Assembly: GCF_003955715.1 (NCBI RefSeq)
Contig: NZ_CP034463.1
Span: 5,580,001 to 5,644,000, forward strand
Reading direction: 5' to 3'
Source: Streptomyces aquilus
GTDB taxonomy: Bacteria; Actinomycetota; Actinomycetes; Streptomycetales; Streptomycetaceae
DNA length: 64,000 nucleotides
The first letter of the stretch is position 1. Each line of letters starts with the position of its first letter. Both the position numbers and the translations under genes were made by a program. Below the pieces are notes generated by a model. That model was not told the origin of the DNA and searched no databases. It worked only from the letters and a program-made list of their open reading frames with translations. Of the stretch, positions 53,394 to 63,479 are shown in pieces.

Positions 53394-53422
53394 CCAATCC
53401 ATCCCCCGACCGGCTCCGGATC
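53394..53422 (+). promoter_or_regulatory. SigK-type promoter CCAATCC-N16-CGGATC (site A)
   Basis: -35 CCAATCC (53394-53400), 16-bp spacer, -10 CGGATC (53417-53422), giving a leader of about 33 nt before the ATG at 53462. The same element precedes sigK (62387-62415). Mycobacterial SigK promoters have a comparable CCATCC / CGAATA pattern. Confidence 0.75.
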
Positions 53423-53461
53423 ACAGGTGACAGCCCTGATCACGGCTCGCGGAGGACAGAG

Positions 53462-54775
53462 ATGACGCGTACATCCCCGACGGTGTCGCCTGCGCCGGAG
53501 AGGGCGAGCGGGGTGCGGCGGCGCACCGCCGTGCTGGGCGCCGGGGTGGCGGGACTGACCGCCGCCCATCTCCTGGCCCGCACCCACCACGTCACCCTCT
53601 ACGAGGCGGACGACCGGCTCGGCGGACACGCCCACACCCACGAGCTGACCTCGGCGCACGACGGACGGGTGCGCCGCGTCGACTCCGGGTTCATCGTCCA
53701 CAACCGGCGCACCTACCCGCACCTGCTGCGACTGTTCGACGAACTCGGCGTCGCCACGCAGGAGTCGGAGATGAGCATGTCCGTGCGGTGCGAGGGGTGC
53801 GGGCTGGAGTACGCCGGCGCCCGCGGCCCGGCCGGGCTGTTCGCGCAGCCCCGCAACCTGCTGCGCGGCCCCTATCTGCGGCTCCTGTCGGAGGTACCGG
53901 CCTTCCACCGGGCGGCCCGGCGACTGCTGGCCGAGGGCGGCGACGAGACCCTGACCCTGGGCGGGTTCCTCGACCGGCACGGCTTCTCCGCCTACTTCCG
54001 CGCCCACTTCACGACCCCGCTCGTGTCGGCCGTGTGGTCCTGCGACGCCGCGACCGCGCAGCGCTACCCGGCGGCCTACCTGTTCCGGTTCCTGGAGCAC
54101 CACGGCCTGCTGTCGGTCGGCGGCTCACCGGTGTGGCGCACCGTACGCGGCGGCTCGCGCACGTACGTCGACCGGATCGCCGCACGCCTCCCCGAGATCC
54201 GCACCGGCACCCCCGTACGGGCCGTGCGCCGCCACGCCGACGGGGCGGAGGTGACGGCCGACGACGGGACGACCGCGTCCTACGACTCCGTGGTGATCGC
54301 GGTCCACCCCGACCAGGCGCTGCGGCTGCTCGCCGACGCCACCCCGCAGGAGAAGGAGGTCCTCGGCGTCTTCCGCTACTCCCGCAACTCCACGCTCCTG
54401 CACACCGACACCACCCTGCTGCCGCGCGCCCGCGGGGCCCGGGCCTCGTGGAACTACCTGATGCCGGCGTGCGAGGCGGGCGCCGACCGGGTGCGGGTCA
54501 GCTACGACATGAACCGGCTGCAACGCCTCGACGCCGCCGAGACGTACGTGGTCACCCTGGGCGGCGACGACCGCGTCGACCCCGGGCGGGTGCTGGCCCG
54601 GATGGTGTACGAACACCCCGTCTACACCCCGGAGTCGGTGGCCGCCCAGCGACGACTGCCCGAACTGAACACCCCCGTCTGCGCGTTCGCGGGCGCCTAC
54701 CACGGCTGGGGGTTCCACGAGGACGGCTGCCGCTCCGGCGCCGAGGCGGCCGCGGCCCTGGGGGTGCCGTGGTGA
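53462..54775 (+). CDS. FAD-dependent amine-oxidase-like protein (Rv0449c-type)
   Basis: The 437-residue protein has an N-terminal FAD site (RRTAVLGAGVAGLTAAHLLARTHHVTLYEADDRLGGHAHTHE, about 20-62) and the substrate domain of NAD(P)/FAD amine-oxidase-like proteins (DSGFIVHNRRTYPHLLRLFDELG, MSMSVRCEGCGLEY, SAVWSCDAATAQRYPAAYLFRFLEHHG). It is the first gene of a four-gene operon with DUF1365, a CFA-like methyltransferase and DUF1295, in the same order as M. tuberculosis Rv0449c-Rv0446c. GGAGGACAG precedes the ATG and the SigK-type promoter sits upstream. It probably modifies acyl chains of membrane lipids. Confidence 0.9.
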   Translation: MTRTSPTVSPAPERASGVRRRTAVLGAGVAGLTAAHLLARTHHVTLYEADDRLGGHAHTHELTSAHDGRVRRVDSGFIVHNRRTYPHLLRLFDELGVATQESEMSMSVRCEGCGLEYAGARGPAGLFAQPRNLLRGPYLRLLSEVPAFHRAARRLLAEGGDETLTLGGFLDRHGFSAYFRAHFTTPLVSAVWSCDAATAQRYPAAYLFRFLEHHGLLSVGGSPVWRTVRGGSRTYVDRIAARLPEIRTGTPVRAVRRHADGAEVTADDGTTASYDSVVIAVHPDQALRLLADATPQEKEVLGVFRYSRNSTLLHTDTTLLPRARGARASWNYLMPACEAGADRVRVSYDMNRLQRLDAAETYVVTLGGDDRVDPGRVLARMVYEHPVYTPESVAAQRRLPELNTPVCAFAGAYHGWGFHEDGCRSGAEAAAALGVPW

Positions 54776-55536
54776 ACACCGCCCCCGCATCCGCCGTACC
54801 CACCAGCCCGGTACCCGCGCTGTACCCGTGCACGATCACCCACGTGCGCACCACCCCCCGGCGCTACGCGCTGCGACACCGCACCTATCTGTGGCTCATC
54901 GACCCCGACCGGCCGCCCCGGCTGCCCCGTCCGCTGCGTTCGCTCGCGCGGTTCGATCCACGGGATCACTTCACCGGCGACCAGTCCTCCGTCCGCGCCG
55001 GGCTCGACGCCTTTCTCGCCGGGCACGGCGTCGGCCTGGACGGCGGCCGGGTGCTGATGCTGACCCAGGCCCGGGTGTTCGGGTACGTCTTCAACCCGCT
55101 CACCCTCTACTGGTGCCACGGCCCCGACGGCCGCCTGCGCTGTGTGGTCGCCGAGGTCCACAACACCTACGGCGGTCGGCACTGCTACCTGCTGCGCCCG
55201 GACGCGGCCGGGACCGCCCGCGCCGACAAGCGCTTCTACGTCTCGCCGTTCTTCCCGGTCGACGGCGGCTACCGCATGCGCGTCCCGCCGCCGGACCACC
55301 GCCTCGACCTGACCGTGCACCTGGACCGCGAGGGCGGCCGGGCCCTGACCGCGACGGTGCGCGGCACCCGGCGAACGGTCAGCGGCGCGGCGCTGCTGCG
55401 GCTGGCGCTGCGTCACCCCTGGTCCCCGCTCCTCGCCTCCGCCGCCATCCGCGTCCACGGCATACGCCTCTACCTGCGGGGGCTGCCCGTCCAGCCGCGC
55501 CCCGACGACCACCGCACACCGGAGAACGCCACATGA
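54772..55536 (+). CDS. DUF1365 family protein (Rv0448c-type)
   Basis: The 254-residue protein shows the DUF1365 pattern: ALYPCTITHVRTTPRRYALRHRTYLWLIDPD, ARVFGYVFNPLTLYWCHGPDG, VVAEVHNTYGGRHCYLL and KRFYVSPFFPVDGGYRMRVP. The function is unknown but the gene is nearly always beside an amine-oxidase-like FAD protein and a CFA-like methyltransferase in proteobacteria and actinobacteria. GTG start overlaps the previous stop (GTGA). Confidence 0.9.
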   Translation: MNTAPASAVPTSPVPALYPCTITHVRTTPRRYALRHRTYLWLIDPDRPPRLPRPLRSLARFDPRDHFTGDQSSVRAGLDAFLAGHGVGLDGGRVLMLTQARVFGYVFNPLTLYWCHGPDGRLRCVVAEVHNTYGGRHCYLLRPDAAGTARADKRFYVSPFFPVDGGYRMRVPPPDHRLDLTVHLDREGGRALTATVRGTRRTVSGAALLRLALRHPWSPLLASAAIRVHGIRLYLRGLPVQPRPDDHRTPENAT

Positions 55537-56849
55537 GAGCAGCACAACCCCGCACGGTCCCCCAGTGGCCCGCCGTCGCCGTCGACCCCGGCCGCTGGCC
55601 GGACGTCGCACACGTCCCGCGTGTCTCGTGGCCCCGCGTCGCGGTGACCGAGGCCGTCGTCCGCCGGGCGCTGCGGGGACTGCCGTTGCGGGCCAGGTTC
55701 GCCGACGGGCCCACCCTCGGCCGGGGCGGCCCGCTGCTGGACGTGCGCGACGCGAAGGCCTTCCACACCCGGGTCGGCGCACAGGGCCTGGTCGGCTTCG
55801 GCGAGTCGTACATGGCACGCGAGTGGGACGCCCCCGACCTGGTGGGCGTGCTGACCGTGCTCGCCGCCCACGCGGCCGACCTCGTCCCGGCCCCGCTGCA
55901 ACGCCTGCGCGGACTGTGGGCGCTGCGGCAGCCGGAGGGCGAGCGCAACACCCCGGACGGTTCCCGCGCCAACATCGGCCGTCACTACGACCTGTCCAAC
56001 GACCTGTTCGCCCTGTTCCTCGACGACACCCTCACCTACTCCGCCGCCCTCTTCCGGGGCTTCCCGGCGAGCTGGGACCTGCTCGCGGCGGCCCAGCACC
56101 GCAAGATCGACCGGCTGCTGGACCTGGCCGCCGTGGGCGAGGGCACCCGGCTGCTGGAGATCGGCACCGGCTGGGGCGAACTGGCCCTGCGCGCGGCGGC
56201 ACGCGGCGCCCGGGTCACCTCGCTCACCCTCTCCCGCGAACAGCAGGCCCTCGCGCGGGAACGGGTGCGCGCGGCGGGCCTCACCGACCGCGTCTCGATC
56301 GAGCTGTGCGACTACCGCGAGGCCCGCGGGGAGTACGACGCGGTCGTCAGCGTGGAGATGATCGAGGCGGTCGGCGCCGAGTTCTGGCCGGTGTACTTCC
56401 GCGCCCTGGACGAGCGGCTGGCCCCCGGCGGCCGGGCGGCGCTCCAGGCCATCACCATGCCGCACGAGCGGATGCTGGCCACCCGGGGCGGCTTCACCTG
56501 GATCCACAAGTACGTCTTCCCCGGCGGGCAGATCCCGTCCACGCGGGCCGTCGAGGAGTGCGCCCGCGACCACACCGCGCTGACCGTCGTCCGTCGTGAC
56601 GCGTACGGCGCGCACTACGCCGAGACGCTGCGGCTGTGGCGGGAGCGGTTCACCGAGCGGACCGCCGAGGTGGAGGCGCTGGGCTTCGACGAGACCTTCC
56701 GCCGCCTGTGGACCTTCTACCTCGCCTACTCCGAGGCCGGGTTCCGCTCCGGCTATCTCGACGTCCACCAGTACCTGCTCACCAAGGCGGGCGGCAGCCG
56801 CACAACTCCGAGCAGCCGCCCGCGGTACGAGGGGCCGGTGCAGCCGTGA
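55533..56849 (+). CDS. Cyclopropane-fatty-acid-synthase-like methyltransferase (UfaA1-like)
   Basis: The 438-residue protein has the lipid-binding N-terminus (GFGESYMAREWDAPDL), then NIGRHYDLSNDLFALFLDDTLTYSAALF and the SAM motif LLEIGTGWGELALRAA near 208, followed by SVEMIEAVGAEFWPVYF. These are typical of CFA synthases and mycobacterial UfaA1, which methylates oleic acid to tuberculostearic acid. It acts on unsaturated phospholipid acyl chains using SAM. ATGA overlap with the DUF1365 gene and GTGA overlap with DUF1295 indicate a tightly coupled operon. Confidence 0.9.
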   Translation: MRAAQPRTVPQWPAVAVDPGRWPDVAHVPRVSWPRVAVTEAVVRRALRGLPLRARFADGPTLGRGGPLLDVRDAKAFHTRVGAQGLVGFGESYMAREWDAPDLVGVLTVLAAHAADLVPAPLQRLRGLWALRQPEGERNTPDGSRANIGRHYDLSNDLFALFLDDTLTYSAALFRGFPASWDLLAAAQHRKIDRLLDLAAVGEGTRLLEIGTGWGELALRAAARGARVTSLTLSREQQALARERVRAAGLTDRVSIELCDYREARGEYDAVVSVEMIEAVGAEFWPVYFRALDERLAPGGRAALQAITMPHERMLATRGGFTWIHKYVFPGGQIPSTRAVEECARDHTALTVVRRDAYGAHYAETLRLWRERFTERTAEVEALGFDETFRRLWTFYLAYSEAGFRSGYLDVHQYLLTKAGGSRTTPSSRPRYEGPVQP

Positions 56850-57649
56850 ACGGCTTCCCGTGGGGCGCCTTCGCCCTCAACCTCGCCCTCGCCGCCGCCG
56901 CGGCGCTCGCCGTCATGCTCGGCACGTTCGCGGTGGCCGTCCGGGTGGGCGTGCACCGGATCGTGGACATCGCCTGGGGCGCCGCCTTCACGGCCGTCGC
57001 CGTCGTCACCTTCGCCGCCTCCGCCGGGCACGGCGACCCGGCCCGCCGGACCCTGGTCACCGTCCTGACCGCCGTGTGGGGTCTGCGGCTGGCCGTGCAC
57101 ATCGCCCGGCGCGGCCGCGGCCACGGCGAGGACCCGCGCTACGAGGCGATGCTGGCCAAGGCTCGCGGCAGCCGGAACGCGTACGCCCTGCGGTGGGTCT
57201 ACTTGCTTCAGGGCGGCCTGGTGTGGCTGGTGTCCCTGCCGGTCCAGGCCGCGCAGTACGTGCCCGGCGCCCTGTCCCCGCTCGCCCTCGCCGGTACGGC
57301 GCTGTGGGCGGTGGGGTTGTGCTTCGAGGCGGTCGGCGACGCCCAGCTCGCCCGGTTCAAGGCGGATCCCGCCCACCGGGGCCGGATCATGGACCGGGGC
57401 CTGTGGGCGTGGACGCGGCACCCCAACTACTTCGGCGACTTCTGCGTCTGGTGGGGCCTGTACCTGCTGACCTGCGACGAGCTCGCGGCGGCGGCCGTGT
57501 CCCTCGTCTCCCCCGTGGTGATGAGCCTGCTGCTGACGAAGGGCAGCGGGAAACGCCTGCTGGAACGTCACCTGCGCGACCGCCCGGGCTACGGCGCGTA
57601 CGTGGCCCGTACGAGTGGCTTCTTCCCCCGTCCGCCCAAGTCGCGGTGA
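56846..57649 (+). CDS. DUF1295 membrane protein (Rv0446c-type, reductase-like)
   Basis: The 267-residue protein has about six membrane helices and the C-terminal motif DRGLWAWTRHPNYFGDFCVWWGLYL, followed by LLLTKGSGKRLLERHLRDRPGYGAYVARTSGFFPRPP. This resembles steroid 5-alpha-reductase / isoprenylcysteine methyltransferase-like enzymes that bind NADPH. It is the last gene of the lipid operon. In M. tuberculosis the homologue Rv0446c lies between ufaA1 and sigK. It may reduce the methylene intermediate made by the CFA-like enzyme, by analogy with known tuberculostearate steps (inferred). Confidence 0.85.
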   Translation: MNGFPWGAFALNLALAAAAALAVMLGTFAVAVRVGVHRIVDIAWGAAFTAVAVVTFAASAGHGDPARRTLVTVLTAVWGLRLAVHIARRGRGHGEDPRYEAMLAKARGSRNAYALRWVYLLQGGLVWLVSLPVQAAQYVPGALSPLALAGTALWAVGLCFEAVGDAQLARFKADPAHRGRIMDRGLWAWTRHPNYFGDFCVWWGLYLLTCDELAAAAVSLVSPVVMSLLLTKGSGKRLLERHLRDRPGYGAYVARTSGFFPRPPKSR

Positions 57650-57661
57650 ACTGGGGGAGAG

Positions 57662-57687
57662 GGGGGCGGCGGCGACCCGCCGCCCCC
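57662..57687 (+). terminator. Hairpin terminator after the lipid operon
   Basis: GGGGGCGGCGG (57662-57672) pairs perfectly with CCGCCGCCCCC (57677-57687) over a four-base loop and is followed by TTGTC. Confidence 0.75.
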
Positions 57688-57717
57688 TTGTCGACCGTCG
57701 GAGCAAGGAGCGTCACT

Positions 57718-58437
57718 GTGCGGCGGAACGGAAATGACCAGGAGGCCTCACTGATCGCGCCCGGCAGTCCTCTGGTGCCCCACCTCCTCCCGGCCCGGCC
57801 CCGGGCCGCGGTGCTGTTGCTCCACGGCGGACGGGAGGCCGGCCTCACCCCGTCCCGCCCCTGGCACCCGGCGGCGCTGCGCATGCGCCCCTTCCACCGG
57901 GCCATCGAGGCCGCGCTGCCCCACGGGGACGTCGCCCTCGCCCGGGTGCGCTACCGGCTGCGCGGCTGGAACAACGACCGGGCCGACCCCGTACCGGACA
58001 CCCTCGACGCGCTGAACCGGCTCGCCGAACTGGCGGGGCCGGTGCCCACGGTGCTGGTCGGCCACTCCATGGGGGCCAGGGCCGCGCTGCACGCCGCCGG
58101 TCACCCGCAGGTGTGCGCGGTGCTGGCGCTGGCGCCGTGGTGGCCGGCGGGGGAGCCCGTGCGGCAGCTGGCGGGCCGTCATGTCGTCGTACTCCACGGC
58201 GAACACGACCGTGTCACCTCACCCGTCGAATCGGCCGACTGCGTGCGGCGGGCCCGGGGCACGGCCGCCCGTGCGGCGATGGCGACGATCCGCGGCGGCG
58301 ACCACGCGATGGTGCGGCGCCACCGCTTGTGGCACCGCACCGCCGCCGCGGTCGTCGCCCACTTCCTCGACCCGGCCACCCGCCCCGACCCGCTGCCGGC
58401 GGAGTGCTACGGGCCGGGGGACGGACCGCTGCTCTGA
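57718..58437 (+). CDS. Alpha/beta-hydrolase
   Basis: The 239-residue protein has VLLLHGGREAG (oxyanion strand), nucleophile elbow VGHSMGARAAL, acid GEHDRVTSP and catalytic His GGDHAMVRRH. It is small for the family and lacks a signal peptide. The GTG start has AAGGAG nine bases upstream. It follows the lipid operon after a terminator, so it may be separately transcribed. Substrate unknown. Confidence 0.8.
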   Translation: MRRNGNDQEASLIAPGSPLVPHLLPARPRAAVLLLHGGREAGLTPSRPWHPAALRMRPFHRAIEAALPHGDVALARVRYRLRGWNNDRADPVPDTLDALNRLAELAGPVPTVLVGHSMGARAALHAAGHPQVCAVLALAPWWPAGEPVRQLAGRHVVVLHGEHDRVTSPVESADCVRRARGTAARAAMATIRGGDHAMVRRHRLWHRTAAAVVAHFLDPATRPDPLPAECYGPGDGPLL

Positions 58438-58448
58438 GCCTTTCGGCG

Positions 58449-59111
58449 TCAGGCGCTCGGCATGAGCACCGTGTCGATGATGTAGACGGTGGCGTTGGCG
58501 GTCTTCACGTTGCCGCAGACCACCTTGGCGGAGTCGTTGACGGTGTAGGACTCACCGGAGCCGGAGGTGGTCAGCTTCGACTTCTCCAAGGTGTCGAAGG
58601 AGCCGTTCTCCAGGTCCTTGGGCGTGAGCTGCCGGCCGACGACGTGGTAGGTGAGGATCTTCGTCAGCTGGGCCTTGTCGTTCAGGACCTTGTCCAGCGT
58701 GGCCTTCGGGATCTTGGCGAAGGCGTCGTTGGTCGGCGCGAACACGGTGATGTTCTGGGCGTTGTTGAGGGTGTCGACCAGTCCGGCCTTCTTCACCGCG
58801 GCCACGAGCGTGGACAGGGCCGGGTTGTTGGAGGCGGCGGTGGCGACCGGGTCCTGGGCCATGCCGTCGAAGGAGCCCGCACCCGACGTGGGCACCGACG
58901 AGCAGGCCGGACCGAAGGGCTCGTCCGCGGTGGCGGTGCCGTCGGAACCGGACACGCTCCCGTCGGCGGCCGGAGCGGACGCGGACGCCTTCGACGACGA
59001 GCCGTCCGACCCGGCGGAATCGCTGCCGCTGTCGGAGCAGGCGCTCAGGGCGAGCGGCAGGACGGCCGCGGCGGCCAGGGTGGCGGCGGTACGGCGGATA
59101 CGAGTGGTCAT
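58449..59111 (-). CDS. Fasciclin-domain lipoprotein (MPT70/83-like)
   Basis: The 220-residue protein has a lipobox (LSAC, Cys25), a Ser/Ala/Asp-rich linker, and one fasciclin domain (MAQDPVATAASNNPALSTLVAAVKKAGLVDTLNNAQNITVFAPTNDAFAKIP, ILTYHVVGRQLTP, VVCGNVKTANATVYIIDTVLMP). It is a surface protein. In mycobacteria MPT70 and MPT83 are the main SigK targets. AAGGAG precedes the ATG and the gene lies 57 bp after the sulfite-oxidase-like gene, so it is probably co-transcribed. Two TGACAGTTGG repeats (59127-59136, 59145-59154) fill the gap. Confidence 0.9.
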   Translation of the reverse strand: MTTRIRRTAATLAAAAVLPLALSACSDSGSDSAGSDGSSSKASASAPAADGSVSGSDGTATADEPFGPACSSVPTSGAGSFDGMAQDPVATAASNNPALSTLVAAVKKAGLVDTLNNAQNITVFAPTNDAFAKIPKATLDKVLNDKAQLTKILTYHVVGRQLTPKDLENGSFDTLEKSKLTTSGSGESYTVNDSAKVVCGNVKTANATVYIIDTVLMPSA

Positions 59112-59168
59112 GTTCTTTCTCCTTGTTGACAGTTGGGTAGGGGCTGACAGTTGGTCAGGGAAGGGGGA

Positions 59169-60815
59169 TCAGTCGACGGTCACGACCACGGAGTGCCATC
59201 CGCTCGCGCCGTCGGGGACGGTCCGGGTGCGTTTCTCGGTCTGCACCCGGCCGGTGCGGTCGGTGGCGCGGACGGTCAGGGTGTGACCGCCCCGGGTGGC
59301 CTCCCAGGGGAAGGACCACTGACGCCAGGTGTCACGGCTGTCCTCGGCGGCGAGGCGGGCCTCCTGCCAAGGGCCGTCGTCGACCCGCACCTCGACCTTG
59401 TCGATGCCGCGGTGCTGGGCCCAGGCCACCCCGGCGACCGTGACCGGGCCGGCCTTCGGGCGGGCGAAGGGCCTGGGGGTGTCGATGCGCGACTGCGTCT
59501 TGACCGGCGCCCGCCGCGCCCAGCCGCGCTTGACCCAGTAGGGGTCGTAGGAGTCGAACGTGGTCAGTTCGATGTCCTCGATCCACTTGCAGGCGGACAC
59601 GAACCCGTAGAGGCCGGGCACGACCATGCGGACCGGGAAGCCGTGCGCGAAGGGCAGCGGCTGGCCGTTCATCCCGATCGCGAGCAGTGCGTCCCGGCCG
59701 TCCATGACGTCCTCGACGGGGGTGCCGAGGGTCATGCCGTCGACCGAGCGGGCCACCAGCTGGTCGGCCGGGCCGCCCTTCGACGGCGGTACGACCCCGC
59801 ACTCGGCCAGCAGGTCGGCCAGCCGCACGCCGATCCAGCGGGCGGTACCGACGTAGGACCCGCCGACCTCGTTCGAGACACAGGTCAGCGTGATGTCCCG
59901 CTCGATCGGCTCGCGCCGCAGCAGGTCGTCGAAGGACAGCGTGCGCGGGCGGCGCACCCCCTTGCCGTGGATGCGCAGTTCCCAGGTCGTGGCGTCCACC
60001 TTCGGCACCACCAGCGCGGTGTCGACCCGGTAGAAGGACCCGTTCGGGGTGAGGAAGGGACCGACCCCGGGCAGCCGCAGCCCGGCCCCCTCGGGGACGG
60101 CGGGCGCCGGTGACGCGGGCATCGGCAGGACCAGCCGGTCGCGGGAAGCGACCGCGCCCCGCCCGCGCGCCCCGTTCAGGCCCCGGCCCAGGGCACCGGC
60201 CCCGGCGGACGCGGCGGCGGCGGCCGACGCCGCGATCACGAACCGGCGGCGGTCCCAGCCCGTCCCGCCGGTATCGCCCGGACCGCCGGTATCGCCCGGA
60301 CCGCCGGTATCGCCCGGACCGGCCGGTGCGCCGGCCCGCACGCCCCGCGGCGCCGACAGGCCCGCGAGGAGATACAGCACCGCGGCACCGGCGCACGCGC
60401 CCACCAGGGAGGGCAGGGCGTCCCCCGGACCGCTGGAATCGGGCCTGCTGAGTGCCGCCGCCGCGCCGACCGCCCCGAACAGCAGAACACCGGCCGCGCC
60501 CGTGCGCCGGAACCGCAGGGCGACCATTCCCAGTACCAGCGCGAAAAGCGCCAGCACGGCGAGAATTCCGAGTTCCAGGACCAGTTTGTCGTTGGTGCCG
60601 AAATTCCGGATCGCCCAGTCCTTCACGGCGGTGGGCGTACGGTCGATCGCCGCACCCCCCACCGCGATGACGGGCCCGGCCTGCGGACGCACGGCCGCCG
60701 ACACCAGCTCGGCCACGGCGAGCGCCGCGAAACCGGCCACGAGACCGCTCGCCGCACCGGCCACCGGCCGTGTCCGGTAGCGGAGGTCGCGTGCTTCCTT
60801 CTTGTCGTCCGTCAC
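59169..60815 (-). CDS. Membrane-anchored sulfite-oxidase-like molybdoenzyme
   Basis: The protein of about 548 residues has about four N-terminal membrane helices, a Gly/Pro/Asp-rich linker and a second, TAT-like hydrophobic segment (DRRRFVIAASAAAAASAGAG). The Mo-cofactor domain has the ligating Cys in ITLTCVSNEVGGSYVG, near residue 310, then MNGQPLPFAHGFPVRMVVPGLYGF and a C-terminal Ig-like Mo-co dimerisation domain. The linker is encoded by three perfect 18-bp repeats. I prefer the GTG at 60815; an ATG at 60836 is also in frame. A quasi-symmetrical SigK-type motif lies upstream. Confidence 0.85.
   Translation of the reverse strand: MTDDKKEARDLRYRTRPVAGAASGLVAGFAALAVAELVSAAVRPQAGPVIAVGGAAIDRTPTAVKDWAIRNFGTNDKLVLELGILAVLALFALVLGMVALRFRRTGAAGVLLFGAVGAAAALSRPDSSGPGDALPSLVGACAGAAVLYLLAGLSAPRGVRAGAPAGPGDTGGPGDTGGPGDTGGTGWDRRRFVIAASAAAAASAGAGALGRGLNGARGRGAVASRDRLVLPMPASPAPAVPEGAGLRLPGVGPFLTPNGSFYRVDTALVVPKVDATTWELRIHGKGVRRPRTLSFDDLLRREPIERDITLTCVSNEVGGSYVGTARWIGVRLADLLAECGVVPPSKGGPADQLVARSVDGMTLGTPVEDVMDGRDALLAIGMNGQPLPFAHGFPVRMVVPGLYGFVSACKWIEDIELTTFDSYDPYWVKRGWARRAPVKTQSRIDTPRPFARPKAGPVTVAGVAWAQHRGIDKVEVRVDDGPWQEARLAAEDSRDTWRQWSFPWEATRGGHTLTVRATDRTGRVQTEKRTRTVPDGASGWHSVVVTVD
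60265..60318. repeat. Three perfect tandem 18-bp repeats (GPGDTG linker)
   Basis: CCGCCGGTATCGCCCGGA is repeated three times without mismatch at 60265-60282, 60283-60300 and 60301-60318. It encodes the linker of the sulfite-oxidase-like protein and is a likely length-variable site. Confidence 0.9.
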
Positions 60816-60884
60816 GTGGGGAATCCGATTCCGCATAAGCGGCGGCTTGGTGCGTCGCGCGATCGGATGAAATCTTTTTCCGGA

Positions 60885-60913
60885 CCAATCCGAGGCCTGT
60901 CCGGCTACGGATC
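60885..60913. promoter_or_regulatory. SigK-type promoter element, quasi-symmetrical (site C)
   Basis: On the plus strand it reads CCAATCC (60885-60891), 16 bp, CGGATC (60908-60913). On the minus strand it reads TTGATCC, N16, CGGATT, ending at 60887. The minus-strand reading would start transcription about 45-70 bp before the sulfite-oxidase-like gene. The plus-strand reading points at the terminator at 60964. Confidence 0.6.
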
Positions 60914-61003
60914 AAAGGGTTCGGGGGTATTCAGCGGATTCGGTGGATATTCGGGAAGAGAGCGCGAAAAACCGCCCGGCGCGGTGGCCGGGCGGTTTTT
61001 CGC
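60914..61003 (+). ncRNA. Candidate short RNA from site C to the terminator
   Basis: A perfect SigK-type promoter match on the plus strand is followed about 50-90 bp later by a 17-bp perfect hairpin with TTTTT. No convincing reading frame lies between them. If the promoter is active in this direction it would make a transcript of about 80-85 nt. It may also be only an incidental strand of the bidirectional element. Confidence 0.3.
60964..61003. terminator. Strong bidirectional terminator (17-bp perfect stem)
   Basis: GCGAAAAACCGCCCGGC (60964-60980) pairs perfectly with GCCGGGCGGTTTTTCGC (60987-61003) over a 6-nt loop. It has A- and T-tracts on both sides and lies 16 bp beyond the rskA stop on the minus strand. 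Confidence 0.9.
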
Positions 61004-61018
61004 GGTCCGCTTCCCCGG

Positions 61019-61771
61019 TCAGGCCGGGAAGGACAGCAGGGCGAGCGGGGCGGAGGTGGGACGCTCACTGCCGCCCGCCGGTTCGACCGTGACCCCCATG
61101 CCCGAGGCCCCGTCGACCGCGCCCCGCAGCAGGACGGCCTGGTCGGTCCGGCCGGGGTCCATCAGACCCGCCGACCGCATGGCGCCGTCCTCGTCGAACC
61201 ACAACTGGTAGACCTTGCCGCGCGCCGGATGCGGCATGCCCGCGACGACGAACACGGCCTGGTCCCTGCTCCGGGAGACGACCACCGTGCCGGTGGACCC
61301 GTCACCGAACGAGGCGGCCCGTGCCCTGGCGTCCGGCGCGGCCAGCACGGCGGCGATCTCGTCCGTCGCCTGCCGGGCCCGGCGGGCCTCACGGGTCGCG
61401 TCCTCGGCCCGCTGGTGCTGCCAGACCGCCGTACCGCCGAACGCGGCGGCGGCCGCGAGGCAGGCGGCCAGCGCCCACCGGGACAGCATCCGGCCGCGCG
61501 GCCGGACCCTGCCCGGGCGGGCCGGATCGGCCCCGTCCGGTGGCTGCTGCCGGACGCTGCCGATCCGGCGCAGCACCCGCTCACGCAGGGCGCCGGGGGG
61601 CGACACCGCGACGGCCAGCCCCAGCCGGGCCGCGGTGGCGGACAGTTCGGCGGCCTCCTGCGCACACGCCTCGCAGCCCGCGAGGTGCCGCTCGAACGCG
61701 GCCGTCTCCTCGCCGGACAGCGCGTGCAGGGCGTAGGCGCCCGTCAGCCGGTGCAGATCGGTGGTCGTCAC
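61019..61771 (-). CDS. rskA: Anti-sigma-K factor RskA
   Basis: The 250-residue protein has an N-terminal zinc-binding anti-sigma (ZAS) domain (LHRLTGAYALHALSGEETAAFERHLAGCEACAQEAAEL, with HxxxCxxC), one membrane helix (WALAACLAAAAAFGGTAVW, near residue 105) and the extracytoplasmic RskA domain (VFVVAGMPHPARGKVYQLWFDEDGAMRSAGLMDP). It holds SigK inactive until cleaved by regulated proteolysis. GTG start overlaps the sigK stop (GTGA-type overlap). The gene order sigK-rskA on one strand matches mycobacteria. Confidence 0.9.
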   Translation of the reverse strand: MTTTDLHRLTGAYALHALSGEETAAFERHLAGCEACAQEAAELSATAARLGLAVAVSPPGALRERVLRRIGSVRQQPPDGADPARPGRVRPRGRMLSRWALAACLAAAAAFGGTAVWQHQRAEDATREARRARQATDEIAAVLAAPDARARAASFGDGSTGTVVVSRSRDQAVFVVAGMPHPARGKVYQLWFDEDGAMRSAGLMDPGRTDQAVLLRGAVDGASGMGVTVEPAGGSERPTSAPLALLSFPA

Positions 61772-62352
61772 GCGGTCACCCCCAAGCAGTCGCGCAGCCG
61801 GATGAGTCCGTCCCGCAGCCGGGTCTTCACGGTGCCCAGCGGAAGCGACAGCGCCTCCGCGACCTGACGGTAGGTGAGCCCGCGGTAGTAGGCGAGCGTG
61901 ACGGCCTGGCGCTGGATCTCGGTCAGCGTGCGCACACAGCGCCGCACCTGTTCCCGCTCCAGCCGGGCCTCGACCTGCTCGGTCACCTCGTCGAACTCGG
62001 GCGTCCGGTCCAGCAGGGCGGCCTTGTGATCCCGCGCCGCCGCGGCCTCCACCGACCGCACCCGGTCGATGGCCCGCCGGTGCGACAGCGTGAGGATCCA
62101 GTTCATGGCCGTCCCGCGGTCCGGCCGGTACCGCGGGGCGGTACGCCACACCTCCACCAGGACCTCCTGGGCGACCTCCTCCGACTGCGCCTGGTCCCGC
62201 AGGACAGCCCGGACGACCCCGAGAACAGGCCCCGCGACGGCGTCGTATACGGCGGCGAACGCCTCCTCGTCGCCCAGCGCCACCCGGCCCACCAACTCCT
62301 GGAGACCTGGCTCCGACGAGGGGTTCGTGCCGATGTGCACGGCTTCTTTCAC
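61768..62352 (-). CDS. sigK: ECF sigma factor SigK
   Basis: The 194-residue protein has region 2 (LGDEEAFAAVYDAVAGPVLGVVRAVLRDQAQSEEVAQEVLVEVWRTAPRYRPDRGTAMNWILTLSHRRAIDRVRS) and region 4 (LTEIQRQAVTLAYYRGLTYRQVAEALSLPLGTVKTRLRDGLIRLRDCL), typical of SigK. GTG start with GGAGG upstream. The neighbouring rskA and the nearby SigK regulon homologues support the name. A promoter matching its own regulon motif sits 35 bp upstream, which implies positive autoregulation. Confidence 0.9.
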   Translation of the reverse strand: MKEAVHIGTNPSSEPGLQELVGRVALGDEEAFAAVYDAVAGPVLGVVRAVLRDQAQSEEVAQEVLVEVWRTAPRYRPDRGTAMNWILTLSHRRAIDRVRSVEAAAARDHKAALLDRTPEFDEVTEQVEARLEREQVRRCVRTLTEIQRQAVTLAYYRGLTYRQVAEALSLPLGTVKTRLRDGLIRLRDCLGVTA

Positions 62353-62945
62353 AGGGTGGCCTCCGAGGTCGGGCGTTTACAGACGTAATCCGGGCCGGAC
62401 GCGCGGACGGATTGGTTCCGGTACCACCGAAACCGCAGGTGGGTGCGCGGCGGTACCGCACGGCACCCGCGCCCGGCGTCCGGCCCACTCCACCCTTCGG
62501 TTCGACCGGCCGTCCCGGTTGCACCCTCGGGGCCCCTGAGCCACCGCGCGCCGGGCCGCCGGGCGAAAAAAACTGCGTCGGCGCGGCAACCTTCTCGTCC
62601 GCTGCGACAACTGGGAGCCGGAAGGCCGAGTCGAACTACCGGATGGACGGGCATGAGGGCAACACAGCACGCCGCGCCGCAACCGTGGCGCAGGCGCGGA
62701 ACGGTCAGGGGCATTCCCTTGGCGCGACCGGTCGTCGACGGCACCGCCGTACCGCCGGACGTCGTGCGGCCGACCGGCGTCCGGTTCGCCCGGCCTTGAC
62801 CAGCCCACCGGCCGGCCTGCGCCGCCCCGCACCCGTGCACGACCGCCGTTCGAATCCCGGGATGGGCCCTGTTAGGCTGCGCCCCCCGTTGTTGTTAAAC
62901 GCGCAACTAACGCACACTTCACGGCAAGGAGAGGGCGACCGGGGG
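62353..62945. other. Intergenic region between divergent sigma-factor genes
   Basis: 593 bp without a convincing gene. Besides site B it holds AT-richer patches (CGAAAAAAACTG near 62563-62574, GTTGTTGTTAAACGCGCAACTAACG near 62889-62913) that may contain the promoter of the plus-strand sigma gene, and a TTCGAATCCC stretch near 62850. Short open frames here have no supported start. Confidence 0.5.
62387..62415 (-). promoter_or_regulatory. SigK-type promoter CCAATCC-N16-CGGATT (site B), autoregulatory
   Basis: On the minus strand, -35 CCAATCC (62415-62409) and -10 CGGATT (62392-62387) are 16 bp apart. The start codon of sigK is at 62352. The match to site A is identical in the -35 and five of six bases in the -10. 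Confidence 0.75.
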
Positions 62946-63479
62946 ATGGTCCTCGATGACGCGTCCGCGGAGTTCCACGAGTTCTTCGAACGCCACTACG
63001 CCGAACTCGCCCGTCTGGCACACCTCCTGACCGGCGAGGCCGACGCGGCGGACGACCTCGCGGCGGATGCCCTGGTCGCCCTGTGGCAGCGCTGGGACCG
63101 GTTGCAGCAGGCCGATCACCCGCTCGCCTACGCCCGCGGTGTGGTGGCCAACCTGGCGCGGGGACGGATCCGCAGCACGGTCCGGGAGCGACGCCGGATC
63201 ACGCTGTTCTGGTCCCGCAGCCCCGAGAAGGTGGAGGGGCCGGACGCGGCGGCCGTGCTGGACGTCCGCGCGGCGCTCGCCCGGCTGCCGTACCGCAAGC
63301 GTGCCTGCGTGGTGCTGAGACACGCCCTCGACCTGTCGGAGAAGGACACGGCGGCGGCGCTGGGCATATCGGTCGGAACGGTGAAGAGCCAGACCTCGAA
63401 GGGAATGGCCGAGCTGCAGAAGCTCCTGGGCGCACACGCGGCCGGGGACCTGGTGCCTGGGAGGAGGAGGAACCGGTGA
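62946..63479 (+). CDS. SigE-family ECF RNA polymerase sigma factor
   Basis: The 177-residue protein has region 2 (FHEFFERHYAELARLAHLLTGEADAADDLAADALVALWQRWDRL) and region 4 (LARLPYRKRACVVLRHALDLSEKDTAAALGISVGTVKSQTSKGMAEL). These are typical of the Streptomyces SigE-70 subfamily rather than of SigK. The ATG has GGGGG directly before it and AAGGAG further upstream. A membrane protein gene overlaps its stop (GTGA) and is the probable regulator. Confidence 0.85.
   Translation: MVLDDASAEFHEFFERHYAELARLAHLLTGEADAADDLAADALVALWQRWDRLQQADHPLAYARGVVANLARGRIRSTVRERRRITLFWSRSPEKVEGPDAAAVLDVRAALARLPYRKRACVVLRHALDLSEKDTAAALGISVGTVKSQTSKGMAELQKLLGAHAAGDLVPGRRRNR

Follow-up and report, generated by a model that had tools for sequence, protein, structure and literature searches.

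Which genes answer to the extracytoplasmic function (ECF) sigma factor SigK in Streptomyces, and how their promoters are arranged, is the question raised by a gene cluster of Streptomyces aquilus. The cluster lies in a DNA stretch of 64,000 nucleotides, hereafter the window (positions 5,580,001 to 5,644,000 of contig NZ_CP034463.1, assembly GCF_003955715.1), and brings together sigK, the anti-sigma factor gene rskA, a lipid operon, a fasciclin gene and a membrane molybdoenzyme gene. An initial annotation had likened this set to the mycobacterial SigK regulon and proposed a common promoter motif. The comparisons described below make it likely that the cluster is a SigK-RskA stress regulon with a probable furan lipid operon and a second, palindrome-based layer of control. 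SigK-RskA regulons are already known, and the present one is a Streptomyces variant.

A promoter motif shared by the cluster and its relatives

The motif CCAATCC-N16-CGGATY was recovered exactly three times in the window, with the 16-bp spacing and at the positions that the initial annotation had given: on the plus strand at 53394..53422 (CCAATCC-N16-CGGATC), where it precedes the lipid operon, on the minus strand at 62387..62415, before sigK, and on the plus strand at 60885..60912. No match occurred in 100 shuffled copies of the window, whose G+C content is 0.719. In the whole genome (10,393,987 bp), the 12-base core had exactly three matches, all within one 9-kb cluster, and its reversed-pattern control had none. 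For a genome as large as this one and with 72% G+C, arithmetic predicts about one match to the core by chance, which would leave an isolated match with little meaning; the weight of the evidence comes from the clustering of three sites in 9 kb and from the conservation of the motif in relatives. The exact core was found 143 times in 67 of 199 Streptomyces genomes, vs 5 occurrences of the reversed control, a count that retains 12 variants of one recurring sequence (CCAATCC, then approximately GGGGAACGCGGAGATG, then CGGAT). The highest number in any of the 199 genomes was 13 exact sites, spread over the contigs of a single genome, possibly an expanded regulon.

The motif was also kept upstream of orthologues, the observation on which the initial annotation had made its shared regulon depend. 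Of 84 distinct SigK genes, 73 had the motif with at most one mismatch in the 200 bp upstream of sigK (59 with a CGGAT site and 14 with a CGAAT site), and 11 had no such site; the genes were drawn from pooled loci that include 30 fetched because of paired motifs. With at most two mismatches, it preceded the molybdoenzyme gene in 74 of 80 named Streptomyces loci and was missing from six; these were the best 80 of 570 loci by protein similarity, and they share genomes with the first set. The distinct molybdoenzyme loci (n = 73) comprised 63 with the exact motif, seven with one mismatch and three with two. In 40 fetched stretches and the window, 37 of the former picked by sigK similarity and three by motif pairs, motifs were located before sigK, lipid operon, molybdoenzyme and fasciclin genes, and the element upstream of the FAD-oxidoreductase gene that opens the lipid operon was the same in relatives. 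The proposed form of the –10 element, CGGAT, was borne out in the window and had to be amended for more distant genes: where SigK is at most 78% identical, 12 of the 14 site-bearing genes have CGAAT, nearer the mycobacterial form. No residues switching the choice between CGGAT and CGAAT rose above threshold among the SigK genes compared.

The identities of the sigma and anti-sigma factors agreed with those first proposed. The sigK gene (61768..62352, minus strand) matched the SigK model NF007228 with 283.7 bits against a cut-off of 226, and its best solved relative was M. tuberculosis SigK (PDB 4nqw, E 7e-42). Cys139 and Cys189 align with cysteines in that structure, and each is kept in 82 of the 84 distinct Streptomyces SigK genes; the role of the M. 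tuberculosis SigK pair C133/C183 is treated in the excerpted text of PMC7509140. The adjoining rskA gene (61019..61771, minus strand) encodes a protein above cut-off for PF10099 RskA_C (115 bits) and PF13490 zf-HC2, and just below it for PF22618 RskA_N (26.9 vs 27). SigK genes were recovered at E <= 1e-55 in 156 of 199 Streptomyces genomes, paralogues of about 60-65% identity included; the genome of the window itself holds a second SigK-like gene, 63% identical (G000:C1:2483767-2484294).

Since the promoter of sigK itself carries the motif, positive autoregulation by SigK, as originally suggested, is the natural reading. It is extremely unlikely that the motif is instead read by another ECF sigma factor. 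Such genes do occur nearby, either in the window, where a SigE-family gene (62946-63479, plus strand; TIGR02983 above cut-off) is divergent from sigK, or in relatives, where LitS-like factors are found; however, the motif stands upstream of sigK itself in 73 of the 84 genes, and 31 of 37 sigK-centred stretches gave no LitS-like match at threshold.

Back-to-back SigK promoters and a phased palindrome

The third exact site had been described as a quasi-symmetrical copy of the motif. The motif at 60885..60912 is indeed exact, but it points away from the molybdoenzyme gene and was rejected as its promoter. That gene (59169..60815, minus strand, with a GTG start at 60815) is faced instead by a fourth site, overlooked by the initial annotation, at 60823..60850 on the minus strand (CCAAGCC-N16-CGGAT, one mismatch). 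Seven nucleotides separate its –10 element from the GTG, also the commonest value among relatives, and the molybdoenzyme message is therefore probably leaderless. The two opposed –35 boxes, 34 bp apart, flank a palindrome, TCGCGCGATCGGATGA (60855..60870; 14 of 16 positions), which lies 4 bp from the –35 of the molybdoenzyme promoter and 14 bp from that of the 60885 site.

This configuration was found to recur, S. lincolnensis and S. antibioticus being among the species with the paired promoter. Of 392 Streptomyces genomes, 62 contained opposed –35 boxes separated by 19-49 bp and accompanied by one –10 element, with zero control matches. The spacers of the 67 distinct pairs measured mostly 34 bp (43 pairs), followed by 44 bp (9), 33 bp (7), 45 bp (3) and 35 bp (2), with single pairs at 24, 29 and 30 bp. 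They share a palindrome with the approximate consensus TCAYYCGATCGRRTGA, which scored at least 12 of 16 in 60 of the 67 spacers vs 0.6% of shuffled spacers. The preferred lengths are reproduced by simple sums around a 16-bp operator, 24 being 4+16+4, 34 being 4+16+14 and 44 being 14+16+14. Moreover, when 171 loci were pooled to 113 distinct modules and gaps of 0-30 bp were scanned, 180 SigK sites within one mismatch had the palindrome at 3-5 bp (89 sites), at 13-15 bp (83) or elsewhere (8), so that 172 of 180 were phased. The distances between palindrome and –35 had played no part in deriving the consensus.

The palindrome was distributed unevenly among the promoters. In a survey of 159 distinct SigK sites from 71 loci, with palindromes counted at a score of at least 12, 36 of 40 distinct molybdoenzyme sites had it at a gap of 4-5 bp from the –35. 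It was also present at eight of nine fasciclin sites and at every one of the 19 divergent lipid-operon sites, where the gap was 13-14 bp in 17 cases, 4 bp in one and 36 bp in another. It was present at only two of 14 non-divergent lipid-operon sites and absent from all 38 non-divergent sigK promoters. In divergent pairs of lipid-operon and fasciclin genes, the two gaps were 14/14, 14/15, 14/4, 4/14 or 4/4, and thus the distances of the operator within one and the same gene pair change by whole helical turns.

From this regularity we infer a candidate DNA-binding protein, probably dimeric, that would act on one helix face at the palindrome. Contact between this protein and the polymerase is favoured over plain occlusion, because a fixed helical face is needed only for contact. 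If transcription starts at the GTG, the centre of the operator falls near –47.5 or –57.5. A single operator can act on two promoters placed back to back.

Two other accounts of the fixed spacing have to be weighed. Spacing and palindrome may both descend from a single ancestral divergent promoter, the phasing itself having no function, a view that gains from the fact that all genomes belong to one genus and that the molybdoenzyme takes part in most pairs. It is nevertheless improbable, as the homology-estimated distance from the –10 element to the start codon varies at sigK and at the lipid operon, the operator gaps of different gene pairs fall on two values that differ by one helical turn, and the lipid-operon/fasciclin pair alone displays the 14/14, 14/4, 4/14 and 4/4 arrangements. 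The palindrome could also be an upstream element recognised by the SigK polymerase itself rather than the site of a separate protein. Its fixed distances from the –35 would suit such an element, yet the 38 non-divergent sigK promoters do without it despite bearing the same motif, and further copies of the palindrome occur at other places in the genomes, with no exact CCAATCC/GGATTGG box within about 100 bp at the 12 of these loci that were checked; this makes the proposal highly improbable.

Several observations weigh against a separate operator-binding protein, or against the strength of the counts that suggest one. The consensus was derived by eye from the same spacers that were later scored, 30 of the 71 surveyed loci had been fetched for their paired motif, the molybdoenzyme-protein set (the best 80 of 570) overlaps the first set in genomes, and the genomes are related, so that the counts are of non-independent events. 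The palindrome scored below 12 in 30 of the 73 distinct named molybdoenzyme loci, S. griseus included, and it was present at one of four divergent sigK sites. Seven of the 67 pairs also scored below 12. Since five of these seven keep a 34- or 44-bp spacer, the spacing can outlast the consensus, or a variant operator can exist; the low-scoring 29- and 30-bp pairs adjoin sigK-like genes.

The promoter without a gene

In the window, the plus-strand promoter at 60885..60912, the 34-bp partner of 60823-60850, has no gene downstream and is here called the orphan. Between it and rskA lies an 18-bp hairpin with A/T runs in both arms (60963..61004), a probable terminator: folding of 60920-61010 gave a z-score of –6.8, and a simple terminator scan did not list the hairpin. 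The orphan promoter is predicted to yield a plus-strand transcript of about 85 nt.

Such a transcript might be a functional small RNA ending at the hairpin, and the exact motif, the operator at 14 bp and the strong hairpin downstream would all fit this idea. We regard it as rather unlikely. In 12 orphan promoters whose downstream stretches were compared, the sequence just downstream was not common to them, and of 87 module sides lacking a regulon gene, 33 had no recognisable promoter, although 50 keep one within a mismatch. What looks by eye like an ECF sigma gene is common to some of the downstream stretches, and what looks like a gene for an RsbW-like ATPase to others. The window shares neither of these genes, for which reason the idea that the orphan reads a conserved gene or a conserved small RNA was rejected and a relic, presumably of a lipid-operon promoter, is preferred as the simpler account.

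The lipid operon and its probable product

Pfam and NCBIfam confirmed the identities and the order of the genes downstream of the promoter at 53394..53422, which the initial annotation had likened to those of the mycobacterial SigK regulon. All are on the plus strand: an FAD oxidoreductase resembling UfaD and Rv0449c (53462..54775; Pfam Amino_oxidase/NAD_binding_8), a UfaO-like DUF1365 protein (54772..55536; PF07103, 231 bits against a cut-off of 25), a UfaM-like S-adenosylmethionine-dependent fatty-acyl methyltransferase of the CMAS/CFA family, which is also ufaA1-like (55533..56849; PF02353, 283 bits), and a DUF1295 membrane protein similar to Rv0446c (56846..57649; PF06966, 232 bits). An alpha/beta hydrolase gene (57718..58437; PF12146/PF20408) is possibly the last of the operon, and a related gene abuts the operon on a Rhodococcus and a Streptomyces plasmid.

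The general proposal of lipid remodelling stood as to a lipid operon under the motif, and it can be made more specific, the pathway being probably one for furan fatty acids. In the excerpts of PMC7380195, UfaD corresponds to RSP1091 and UfaO to RSP1090, UfaO proteins carry DUF1365, and the R. palustris genes RPA2571-2570-2569 stand in the order D-O-M. The FAD enzyme, DUF1365 and CMAS genes of the window follow this same D-O-M order. Their products are 45, 34 and 45% identical to Azospirillum homologues, and their likeness to the Rhodobacter set was judged by domains and gene order. On these grounds, the operon probably makes furan fatty acids, or related methylated, oxidisable ones.

The trio is repeatedly associated with sigma factor genes. 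In Azospirillum, its neighbours are an ECF sigma gene and a gene with a cupin domain; in Caballeronia, the homologues lie next to an ECF gene and an anti-sigma gene. Similarly, the 39-kb Streptomyces plasmid NZ_CP108251.1 carries SigK and anti-sigma genes divergent from a UfaD-UfaO-UfaM-DUF1295-hydrolase set, with organic-hydroperoxide-resistance and MarR genes nearby. DUF1365 was detected in 86 of 296 genomes of the class, and 14 of 40 DUF1365-centred stretches (39 of 71 non-Streptomyces genomes with a match) carry sigK-like and rskA-like genes. In three loci of one non-Streptomyces genus (L220, L242 and L243), opposed SigK-like sites with a 12-bp gap were seen before the lipid operon, in two of them divergent from sigK.

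The principal alternative is a product other than furan fatty acids, namely 10-methyl-branched (tuberculostearic-type) or cyclopropane ones. A CMAS/CFA-family methyltransferase would be expected to fit such products, BfaA-BfaB likewise consist of an FAD enzyme next to a methyltransferase (PMC5660069, excerpt; set beside the proteins of the window by description only), and, as a point that tells against the furan assignment, the same excerpt reports that M. tuberculosis UfaA1 makes 10-methyl stearic acid in vitro. However, the genes for the FAD enzyme and the methyltransferase are separated by a DUF1365 gene, which gives the order of the proven UfaD-UfaO-UfaM, and the gene list in the figure legend seen from PMC5660069 names no DUF1365 gene. 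The alternative is accordingly held to be somewhat unlikely, and a furan-type product remains the preferred reading.

Light and oxidised lipid as candidate signals

In Rhodobacter, the furan fatty acid genes are targets of sigmaE-ChrR and are needed for the turnover of ChrR by singlet oxygen (PMC6852236, in part). By analogy with this requirement, one may reasonably guess that a signal carried by lipid reaches RskA. The stimuli of SigK are called obscure in the text seen of PMC9861118, where M. kansasii fasciclin genes with putative SigK sites are described as rising modestly in light, and a blue-light response of V. cholerae is reported to run through ChrR-SigmaE and a MerR protein (PMC5241685, excerpt).

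Genes for light responses adjoin sigK in some relatives. In 37 sigK-centred stretches from 31 genomes, a photolyase was present in nine, a B12-binding MerR protein in seven and a LitS-like ECF factor in six, and a photolyase or B12-binding MerR (LitR-like) gene lay within the roughly 20-kb stretch in 11 of 37, with examples checked against Pfam. In L242 and L243, a photolyase gene has an almost palindromic SigK-like promoter. A light signal is weakened by the absence of light genes from the 64-kb window, by the molybdoenzyme-centred set (photolyase in 2 of 80 loci, LitR in 0 of 80) and by the class-wide set, where photolyase reached 2 of 40 at the same threshold. Light or singlet oxygen as the signal for SigK is thus suggestive.

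Other occurrences of the palindrome and candidate binding proteins

The palindrome was also encountered at three places outside the regulon, which are leads only and where the gene names were read by eye, without a family match. The form TCATCCGATCGTGTGA was seen at apparently one locus in 12 genomes, the loci having been chosen by that match, close to a gene that looks like lipA and to a possible regulator gene; its flanks vary. In eight loci, a perfect palindrome starts 62-89 bp before a gene for a secreted protein beginning MGRHRRS, which lies beside an apparent acylphosphatase gene in several of them. In L275-L278 and others, TCACCC-N4-GAGTGA stands about 54 bp upstream of what looks like a small ribbon-helix-helix gene, which is itself divergent from an apparent MarR gene.

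The ribbon-helix-helix gene was found in 27 of 28 genomes, and perfect half-sites preceded it in the 10 of 27 loci where a start was found, the other 17 having given no start. The core of its site does not track the operator of the molybdoenzyme, so no assignment of this protein as the binder was made, and this too counts against the proposed second layer. LitR was likewise rejected: the LitR/CarH light clusters of Streptomyces adjoin sigK in a minority of relatives, and in the seven stretches with lit genes, no palindrome of at least 13/16 was found inside these genes.

Further genes of the cluster

The fasciclin-domain protein (58449..59111, minus strand; PF02469, 126 bits) is apparently a lipoprotein of the MPT70/83 type, its lipoprotein signal having been recognised by eye only. 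The molybdoenzyme is a membrane-anchored molybdopterin oxidoreductase with a SorA/SoxC-like domain (PF00174, 145 bits); its NCBIfam SorA/SoxC matches were under their cut-offs, and its membrane part was read from the sequence.

A model and its relation to known systems

The model that emerges may be stated as follows. RskA would restrain SigK until a membrane or envelope signal releases it, and SigK RNA polymerase would then read CCAATCC-N16-CG(G/A)AT before sigK-rskA, leading to autoregulation, and drive the UfaD-UfaO-UfaM-DUF1295 operon, the fasciclin protein and the membrane molybdoenzyme. The lipid operon would yield furan or related fatty acids, and the probable stimulus of the system is oxidised membrane lipid or photo-oxidative stress, in parallel with sigmaE-ChrR of Rhodobacter. 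In a second layer, the 16-bp palindrome would act on molybdoenzyme, fasciclin and, when divergent, lipid promoters, with its bound protein touching the polymerase from one helix face. Within this model, gene identities, conservation of the motif, the palindrome and its 4/14-bp phasing are observed in the sequences; binding by SigK, the lipid product, the signal and an activating role of the palindrome-binding protein are the putative parts.

The closest known system is the mycobacterial SigK-RskA regulon, which shares the sigma and anti-sigma families, fasciclin targets and a similar promoter. In M. tuberculosis, this regulon comprises Rv0449c-Rv0444c and mpt83-dipZ-mpt70, and its FAD, DUF1365, CMAS and DUF1295 genes stand in what we take to be the same order as in the window. 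The S. aquilus locus differs in that sigK has its own SigK promoter, that a molybdoenzyme is included and that a phased palindrome serves paired promoters; sigK of M. tuberculosis is autoregulated through the Rv0449c promoter (PMC7509140, in part). The sigmaE-ChrR (ECF11) regulon of Rhodobacter, with UfaD-UfaO-UfaM, likewise places an ECF/anti-sigma pair over homologous lipid genes. ChrR has a cupin-like domain. Unlike ChrR, the anti-sigma factor of the window showed no cupin domain in Pfam at E <= 0.001, and its ECF group and promoter differ from those of sigmaE. Class I and class II activators are known to act at helically phased upstream sites on divergent promoters; the palindrome resembles their sites in shifting by whole turns relative to the –35, and departs from them in serving an ECF promoter. 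In the open-licence literature, where no search was aimed at helical phasing, no account was found of a SigK regulon in Streptomyces, of furan synthesis assigned to SigK operons or of the phased operator.

A broader proposal is quite possible, if short of probable: that the actinobacterial SigK regulon is a response to oxidised lipid or photo-oxidative stress in which furan fatty acids may signal to RskA, and which in Streptomyces would be gated by a DNA-binding protein placed on one helical face between back-to-back SigK polymerases, 4 or 14 bp from each –35. With its spacers of 24, 34 and 44 bp, the phased operator forms a naturally occurring series in which to study how a regulator acts with an ECF polymerase. 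If the proposal is true, a single stress would act, in harmless soil bacteria, through one regulon on a lipid antioxidant, a fasciclin of the cell surface and a molybdoenzyme of the envelope, and it would offer a candidate function for the equivalent mycobacterial operon.

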